Source: Geodermatophilus sp. DF01-2
Lineage (GTDB): Bacteria; Actinomycetota; Actinomycetes; Mycobacteriales; Geodermatophilaceae
Assembly: GCF_004571065.1 (NCBI RefSeq)
Contig: NZ_SPQN01000042.1
Span: 1-38,273, forward strand
DNA: 38,273 nucleotides
Direction: 5' to 3'
Below are positions 27,727 to 28,263 of this stretch, piece by piece (position 1 is the stretch's first letter; the number at the start of each line of letters is the position of its first letter). A program made the position numbers and the translations under genes. A model generated the notes under the pieces. That model was not told where the DNA came from. It did not search any database and saw only the letters and a program-made list of their open reading frames with translations.

Positions 27727-27820
27727 GACCACACCACTGTAGTTCGACCGGGTGACAGGCCCGGTTCGTCGGGAACGCCCGTCCCACGAGCCCCGCTGGC
27801 GCCCGCCGTCGTCCCTGTGG

Positions 27821-27826
27821 CAGACT
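27821..27826 (+). promoter_or_regulatory. -10-like CAGACT of the chorismate mutase leader transcript
   Basis: CAGACT ends 7 nt before the GTG of the leader peptide, predicting transcription start at that codon. No strong -35 is seen. Confidence 0.4.
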
Positions 27827-27833
27827 CTGTCCC

Positions 27834-27896
27834 GTGCTCGCCTCCTTCAGCTTTTACTACGGCCACCGGGTTCCGGTGTCCGTCACCGCTGGCTGA
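27834..27896 (+). CDS. Phe/Tyr-rich leader peptide upstream of chorismate mutase
   Basis: A 20-codon ORF from GTG to TGA with the core FSFYYG: Phe at 5 and 7, Tyr at 8 and 9. One Phe codon is TTT, very rare in this GC-rich DNA. Four aromatic residues in five codons, the products of the pathway that the next gene feeds, are the hallmark of an attenuator peptide. A terminator lies 17-45 bases beyond the stop and the chorismate mutase ATG 95 bases beyond it. No Shine-Dalgarno is seen; a -10-like CAGACT 7 nt upstream suggests a leaderless start. Within and after it are competing hairpins: CACCGG/CCGGTG (27864-27878), CGGTG/CACCG (27874-27888) and GGCTG/CAGCC (27891-27904). Confidence 0.78.
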   Translation: MLASFSFYYGHRVPVSVTAG

Positions 27897-27912
27897 GCAC
27901 AGCCGCACACAG

Positions 27913-27950
27913 ACGCCCCGGGCCCGAAGAGCCCGGGGCGTTTCTCGTCT
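27913..27950 (+). terminator. Attenuator terminator before chorismate mutase
   Basis: Perfect 11-base arms ACGCCCCGGGC (27913-27923) and GCCCGGGGCGT (27931-27941) with a 7-base loop CCGAAGA, followed by TTCTCGTCT. This is a rare U-containing intrinsic terminator here. It lies between the leader peptide and its structural gene, where read-through must be regulated. Confidence 0.85.
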
Positions 27951-27990
27951 CCGGGGTCCGACGGCCTCCTGCCCGCCCCGGAGGCCCCCC

Positions 27991-28263
27991 ATGACCGCCA
28001 CCCTCCCCACGACGTCCACCGCCGACGAGCGCATCGCCGAGCTCCGCGAGCAGATCGACGACTGCGACGCCGAGATCATCCGGCTGGTGCAGCGCCGGCT
28101 GGCCGTGTCGCAGGAGATCGGTGAGCTGCGCCGCGCCTCCGGCGGCACCCGGCTCTCCCTCTCCCGCGAGCAGCAGGTGCTCACCCGGTTCCGGACCGAG
28201 CTCGGCCCGGACGGCGCGACGCTCGGCATGCTGCTGCTGCGCCAGGGCCGCGGCCGCCTGTGA
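27991..28263 (+). CDS. Chorismate mutase, AroQ type (Rv0948c-like)
   Basis: 90 residues, all-helical AroQ fold. It shows RIAELREQIDDCDAEIIRLVQRRLAVSQEIGELR followed by ASGGTRLSLSREQQVL, ELGPDG and a terminal LLLRQGRGRL. The last segments closely resemble the intracellular M. tuberculosis enzyme (Rv0948c, AroQ-delta), which is weakly active alone and activated by complex formation with DAHP synthase; the same is plausible here but inferred. It converts chorismate to prephenate, the first committed step to Phe and Tyr. The ATG has GGAGG upstream. Divergence from uvrD1/pcrA is conserved with M. tuberculosis. A Phe/Tyr leader peptide and terminator lie upstream. Confidence 0.93.
   Translation: MTATLPTTSTADERIAELREQIDDCDAEIIRLVQRRLAVSQEIGELRRASGGTRLSLSREQQVLTRFRTELGPDGATLGMLLLRQGRGRL

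Follow-up and report, generated by a model that had tools for sequence, protein, structure and literature searches.

A probable Phe/Tyr leader-peptide attenuator ahead of actinobacterial chorismate mutase genes

The window analyzed here is the whole 38,273-nucleotide stretch of Geodermatophilus sp. DF01-2 DNA, and the features of the locus under study are collected in Table 1. The chorismate mutase encoded there matched Pfam CM_2 (E 3.4e-12) and NCBIfam PRK07857, the latter above its cut-off, and the neighbor gene on the opposite side encodes a UvrD/PcrA helicase on the minus strand. Re-reading of the sequence confirmed, with exact coordinates, the GTG-started ORF of the original prediction, whose 20 sense codons (V-L-A-S-F-S-F-Y-Y-G-H-R-V-P-V-S-V-T-A-G) include F-S-F-Y-Y at codons 5–9, with TTT as codon 7. 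TTT is rare in the window: none of the 55 Phe codons of the four CDSs counted is TTT. With both strands of the window considered, this leader was the sole ORF of 8–40 codons having at least four F/Y in five codons, and a mean of 0.0 such ORFs was found in 50 mononucleotide shuffles scanned on the plus strand only.

Table 1. Coordinates of the leader, RNA structures and gene at the chorismate mutase locus.
Feature	Position	Strand	Evidence
-10-like hexamer CAGACT, 7 nt ahead of GTG	27821..27826	+	sequence and spacing across leaders
Leader ORF MLASFSFYYGHRVPVSVTAG followed by stop; GTG start 27834-27836, TGA 27894-27896	27834..27896	+	sequence; leader conserved
Sensor codons TTT-TAC-TAC (F7, Y8, Y9); pattern F-x-Y ahead of Gly	27852..27860	+	117 leaders
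P1 hairpin (27859-27869 with 27873-27883), Tyr codon to codon 17; putative anti-antiterminator	27859..27883	+	covariation
Antiterminator 5′ side (27867-27873 and 27875-27880), loop and 3′ arm of P1	27867..27880	+	duplex -21.0 kcal/mol; covariation
Antiterminator 3′ side (27912-27917 and 27920-27926), overlapping terminator 5′ arm	27912..27926	+	swap test; covariation
Terminator hairpin (27913-27923 with 27931-27941) and T-containing tail	27913..27950	+	91.6% cells paired; covariation
GGAGG, likely Shine-Dalgarno of chorismate mutase	27980..27984	+	sequence
Chorismate mutase, AroQ type, 90 aa, putative regulated gene; ATG 27991, stop 28261-28263	27991..28263	+	domain matches

The leaderless-looking start noted at the outset, with CAGACT 7 nt upstream, has a spacing that recurs in 113 of the 117 leaders collected in this study: a [TC]ANNNT hexamer ended 4–10 nt ahead of an in-frame start in these 113, at 6 or 7 nt in 111 of them, vs. 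96 of 2177 when start-like codons of the window were taken singly, a somewhat generous contrast in that leaders were allowed several in-frame starts and the control one. Only L100 and L105–L107 lacked the hexamer at that spacing. With a hexamer 6–7 nt ahead of the start, the transcript is therefore predicted to have its first nucleotide at the start codon or beside it.

Downstream of the ORF, the terminator postulated ahead of chorismate mutase was re-read as 11 perfect pairs with a G+C-rich stem and a T-containing tail, in which GGGGCG and then TTTCTCGTC follow the stem as an imperfect T-tract. Nucleotides 27911–27943 gave a fold energy of −26.8 kcal/mol, and 27826–27995 a folding z of −3.83, while a simple terminator and promoter scan reported none. 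The original prediction had also found no convincing antiterminator, and this did not hold: one is present, formed by 27867–27880 pairing with 27912–27926.

To evaluate conservation, chorismate mutase loci were collected at increasing taxonomic distance. The gene was found in 109 of 112 family genomes, and an F-x-Y-G leader preceded it at all 72 family loci examined; given also a terminator stem with 91.6% paired cells, both the Phe/Tyr codons and the terminator, whose conservation had been at issue, are retained in relatives. In the order, 146 of 160 genomes carried the gene, and the script detected the leader in 45 of 50 loci drawn from 14 other families (f2–f5, f7–f16). Among the rest, L108 has a related leader recognized by eye with one aromatic codon in its core (MAQRQFLLGYRIPVPVSG), L121 has an F-rich leader of other form, and a leader was looked for ahead of chorismate mutase at L114–L116 with none found. 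Seven further order loci (L287–L293) comprised three with and four without the leader. The leader-lacking loci L114–L116 and L288–L291, which point to a likely loss within f8, comprise all six examined loci of the genera g31, g45 and g48 plus L288 of a fourth genus, g19, that otherwise has the leader. The f3 loci L101–L104 carry, upstream of chorismate mutase, a divergent leader of the GFFYGTPATAPGEEV type with another hairpin arrangement. A close-relative search found the leader in 79 of 80 genomes, the sole miss having 18 nt of upstream sequence, and Dactylosporangium, Catellatospora and Asanoa are among the genera with the leader.

Further, the model R1 was run on 296 class genomes, and its 29 best loci (L225–L253) all had the leader and chorismate mutase, five of them lying in genomes that had supplied sequences to R1. 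Eleven of the 29 came from one genus, probably Streptomyces, with leaders such as MLTQTTFLFTYGNRPTGCHGRAA. These loci indicate that the predicted attenuator family is spread beyond the order of the window. The R1 tally of 182 of 296 class genomes at E ≤ 0.01 overstates that spread, as many matches below the best 29 had no leader by script (L254–L256, L258–L263, L270–L273, L275, L278, L282–L285), and L254 had none at E 1.2e-10, so R1 E-values are unsafe on their own. The weaker matches were mixed, some being plain terminators and some leaders of the same build ahead of DAHP synthase. One of them, L255, has a very short ORF, VTFSHGIR, ahead of a strong hairpin at approximately bases 296–322 of its reverse complement; no recognized gene lies nearby, and the ORF may be due to chance. 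A second copy in the window's own genome was sought and rejected: of seven R1 matches just one was the element itself, two were its opposite strand, and four (L221–L224) had no aromatic leader by script. The type II DAHP synthase and prephenate dehydratase genes of that genome had no aromatic leader either.

Folding with covariation, which the original prediction had proposed as a check, was assayed on 50 sequences hand-picked from the 117 (those left out include the four f3 loci, L120 and L133), and P1, antiterminator and terminator each scored above all 500 shuffles. P1 (columns 11–21 with 25–35) was paired in 89.4% of cells with covariation of 0.226 vs. 0.096 shuffled, the antiterminator (columns 19–28 with 77–86) in 76.5% with 0.222 vs. 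0.126, and the terminator (columns 72–81 with 97–106) in 91.6% with 0.159 vs. 0.070 (0 of 500 in each case). The three scores also exceeded every slid version, with the −1 slide of the antiterminator coming close (0.178; both partners changed in 6 vs. 5 pairs). Counts of such doubly changed pairs were not unusual, being matched by 80 of 500 shuffles for P1 and 147 of 500 for the antiterminator. The antiterminator halves are GGGAGUCCGG with CCGGGCUCCC in f16, GGACUCCGG with CCGGAGUCC in f15, and GGUUGUCCGGG with CCCGGGCAAUC in L133.

A swap test between families was then used to quantify the specificity of the antiterminator, on 74 distinct loci of the 117 from 15 families. Duplexes of segment 2 with segment 3 had a mean of −15.9 kcal/mol within families vs. 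−13.3 kcal/mol (sd 0.53) when permuted, and 0 of 20,000 family permutations were as good as the own pairing. The own pairing came first in 6 of 15 families (f8, f11, f13–f16); f1, f9 and f10 had it in third place, f7 in fifth, and f2, f3, f4, f5 and f12 between 7th and 14th. Script errors in placing segment 3 worked against the own pairing in L101, L103, L104 and L110 and in its favor in L109. The Micromonosporaceae-like f16 (L088, L090, L135 and others) has an extra inverted repeat between P1 and terminator, with GTAGGTC or GTGGGTC inside the ORF and GACCTAC past its stop.

The sensor codons were compared across the 117 leaders, counting back from Gly. Position −3 was F in 113 (TTT 105, TTC 8), position −1 was Y in 112 (TAC 102, TAT 10), and position −2 was Y, F, S, P, A or L. 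No third-position excess of divergence was found over codons −4 to −1 (0.188, 0.273 and 0.158 for the three positions), which fits a middle codon varying among these six residues. The first F and the middle codon lie ahead of the P1 stem, and the Tyr codon lies at its base. The Phe at −3 is nearly always TTT (105 of 113), whereas TTC predominates among the remaining Phe codons of these leaders (55 of 74); the preference for TTT at −3 may reflect slow decoding or the keeping of this site unpaired.

Effects of a stalled ribosome were modeled with 15 nt past the P-site start taken as covered. In window RNA to 27931, the ribosome-free leader folded with P1, while a ribosome with F7, Y8 or Y9 in the A site gave the antiterminator fold (−30.7, −28.5 and −20.2 kcal/mol, respectively), as did F5 in the A site. 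When the terminator 3′ arm was added, the terminator was within the best fold in every state tried, so anti-termination would have to be kinetic. The model was extended to 106 distinct loci, after five were skipped for having no terminator by a simple rule and six duplicates were removed, and the antiterminator was counted as formed at five or more pairs. It formed in 94, 96 and 96 loci with the ribosome stalled at −3, −2 and −1, respectively, vs. 14 ribosome-free. With the ribosome at the stop codon it formed in 0 of 106, because the modeled ribosome covers segment 2. Stalled folds failed in f8 (0 of 2) and f10 (0 of 1) and were partial in f2 (0, 2 and 2 of 3), f3 (3 of 4), f9 (1 of 2) and f15 (5 of 7); in f16 the antiterminator formed ribosome-free in 6 of 10.

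Computation thus found at this locus a 5′ short ORF, end-product control codons, a P1 hairpin that a ribosome halted at those codons can open, and an antiterminator exclusive of the terminator. The element is very probably a trp/phe-type, ribosome-mediated attenuator of transcription with charged tRNA-Phe and tRNA-Tyr as the signal sensed, and the originally proposed Phe/Tyr attenuation of chorismate mutase gains support from leader conservation, the antiterminator, the promoter position and the Trp codons before DAHP synthase described below. From the computed structures and their conservation, we infer transcription start, stalling, termination and read-through as follows. RNA polymerase would start at or beside the GTG, and a ribosome would load on the leaderless 5′ end. 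When Phe and Tyr are ample, the ribosome would reach the TGA, covering approximately 27876–27906 (15 nt either side of the P site), and once it had left, P1 would re-form; in either state the antiterminator would be blocked, the terminator (27913–27941) would fold, and chorismate mutase would not be transcribed. When Phe or Tyr is scarce, the ribosome would wait on TTT-TAC-TAC, covering the P1 5′ arm partly or fully and leaving 27867–27880 free to pair with 27912–27926, and with the antiterminator formed the terminator would come too late and the polymerase would continue into chorismate mutase.

Rho, or a general coupling of transcription and translation, could also be imagined to act here, with an untranslated leader letting Rho terminate and the hairpin serving as a pause or 3′-end stabilizer. 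The imperfect T-tract would suit such a model, as would L019 and L022, in which GCGTCCGTCG replaces GCGTTTCTCG 3′ of the terminator stem; however, an antiterminator covarying with the terminator arm has no role in it, and we consider it improbable. L019 and L022 also have an F-P-Y leader, and their attenuator is possibly decaying.

Slightly less probable still is control of translation by the upstream ORF, whereby stalling or termination would open or close a hairpin over the Shine-Dalgarno sequence of chorismate mutase. The GGAG of the window does sit in a predicted hairpin 3′ of the terminator, but its four bases were fully paired in just 2 of the 25 genus loci with a detected Shine-Dalgarno sequence (26 examined), and a conserved and covarying terminator argues against this explanation. 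A sequestering hairpin as a second layer of control was rejected on the same count, being found in the window fold but in just 2 of 25 genus loci.

The peptide itself might instead act, F-x-Y-G-x-R-x-P being a nascent-chain arrest peptide that senses free Phe or Tyr, much as TnaC senses free Trp. The G-x-R-x-P core is indeed conserved, with R at +2 in 99 and P at +4 in 102 of the 117 leaders, but the codons of this core lie in the P1 stem, and substitutions there often preserve pairing and not the residue. For example, pair 16–30, which joins the first base of an H/Y/N/T codon to the last base of a Val/Ala codon, is CG in 12, UA in 10, UG in 10, AU in 6, GC in 2 and unpaired in 9, and in L059 Arg for His and Ala for Val occur together with the stem kept; pair 17–29 is unpaired in 17 of 49. 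Such residue-altering changes that often keep pairing suggest that the RNA, not the peptide, is conserved there. Most f16 leaders moreover carry Gly-Thr/Ser-Gly-Ser-Pro at the core, and we give an arrest peptide a lower probability again. Finally, short ORFs are common and a terminator alone is unremarkable, but the conservation, the covariation and the lack of a second such ORF in the window leave a chance ORF above an ordinary terminator with a negligible probability.

Among known systems, a Phe-Tyr-Phe leader was described at aroF (DAHP synthase) of C. glutamicum (Mentz 2013; PMC4046766) and carries the name aroR after Neshat 2014 (PMC11802643, PMC7356990); the accessible text reports read-through under Phe limitation and Tyr as without effect (PMC11802643). 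As far as the accessible parts of these reports extend, aroR is the closest known case, being likewise an actinobacterial Phe/Tyr leader ahead of a gene of the aromatic pathway, but it precedes DAHP synthase whereas the window element precedes chorismate mutase, and it is reported for one species and likened here by description, not by sequence. The aroR transcript is leaderless. The E. coli pheA (pheL) and trp attenuators share end-product control codons and mutually exclusive 1:2, 2:3 and 3:4 hairpins. The E. coli pheL and trp leaders use a Shine-Dalgarno sequence. The window element differs from these in that its start looks leaderless and P1 is wholly coding, its base being formed by the sensor Tyr codon. 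Both E. coli systems are named in PMC11802643.

Actinobacterial trp, ilv and leu leader peptides belong to attenuators too, several of them leaderless, but for other amino acids (PMC1262725, PMC8079986, accessible portions), and the eight leader peptides listed there for S. lividans serve Leu, Trp, Ala, Ile, Met and Thr (PMC8079986). According to the accessible text of the Seliverstov 2005 survey, the Phe/Tyr operons of Actinobacteria had no conserved RNA element (PMC1262725), and a report on ilvB1 and whiB7 attenuation in mycobacteria makes no mention of chorismate (PMC13236596). The uORFC-13-1 motif at Acholeplasma aroF is likewise a predicted Phe-codon uORF ahead of a terminator and an aromatic gene, but according to the accessible part of the source it belongs to another phylum and has an RBS together with a U run that encodes one or more Phe (PMC8632094). 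None of the 4227 models of Rfam 15, leader, T-box and riboswitch families included, matched the window at gathering score, and the sub-threshold matches of 27740–28020 were unrelated (E 0.64 or more). The string FFYGYR was not found in the literature searched, with an unseen report possible and most subscription papers outside the search; as far as that literature extends, the family is new and its mechanism classical.

The leaders ahead of DAHP synthase, which we take to be type I-beta, offered a comparison of codons between two target genes. A 160-residue fragment of the enzyme scored below the full-length cut-offs of the NCBIfam DAHP synthase families that it matched, and a protein search with it gave matches in 66 of 148 class genomes. 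Among the best 30 of those loci, 17 had an aromatic leader (L294–L301, L304, L308, L309, L313, L315, L317, L318, L321, L323), which is no class rate as the query was taken from a leader-bearing genome; the L320 ORF and the second ORF of L317 were set aside as lacking this gene's leader layout behind them. Trp was present in 15 of the 17, e.g., MQRNFWRFYGYRP, MRTAFWFWYGDGP and VARWFFSYYAEPG. Leaders of this kind come from other families and, as described below, from beyond the class, and most combine Trp with Phe and Tyr codons. In contrast, Trp was found in the six residues ahead of Gly in 0 of the 117 chorismate mutase leaders and anywhere in 0 of 11 from the Streptomyces-like genus, giving 0 of 128 cores combined (Fisher p = 1.4e-18, or 3e-14 when only distinct sequences are counted, with no correction for kinship in either). 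L217, a chorismate mutase leader beyond the 128, has Trp in its core, and L112 has one Trp outside the core.

DAHP synthase supplies the routes to Phe, Tyr and Trp alike, while chorismate mutase feeds only Phe and Tyr. With Trp codons ahead of the former and absent ahead of the latter, the leader codons follow the pathway, and this match, drawn from sequence comparison, supports charged-tRNA sensing as the strongest evidence for it. The codon difference between the two target genes would be a natural test of what the attenuator senses. Such control would let Actinobacteria match flux in the Phe/Tyr branch directly to amino-acid supply, and the element would mark a point of control in a pathway feeding many aromatic natural products.

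A phylum search gave matches in 23 of 198 genomes at E ≤ 1e-6. Outside the class, L334 had no leader, and seven loci (L327–L333) carried a leader, e.g., MSRSFGFWFFYGGRRPA. Six of the seven (not L333) showed DAHP synthase directly, and Trp lay in the aromatic cluster in four and behind it in one. We lean slightly toward one ancient attenuator design, aromatic codons ahead of an ORF-encoded hairpin, extending across much of Actinomycetota and re-coded by branch (Phe/Tyr for chorismate mutase, Phe/Trp/Tyr for type I-beta DAHP synthase), of which C. glutamicum aroR would be a member. The stalled folds of the DAHP synthase leaders were mixed, with at least five leader–terminator pairs in 19 of 22 for a ribosome halted at the final aromatic codon and in 12 of 22 when ribosome-free.
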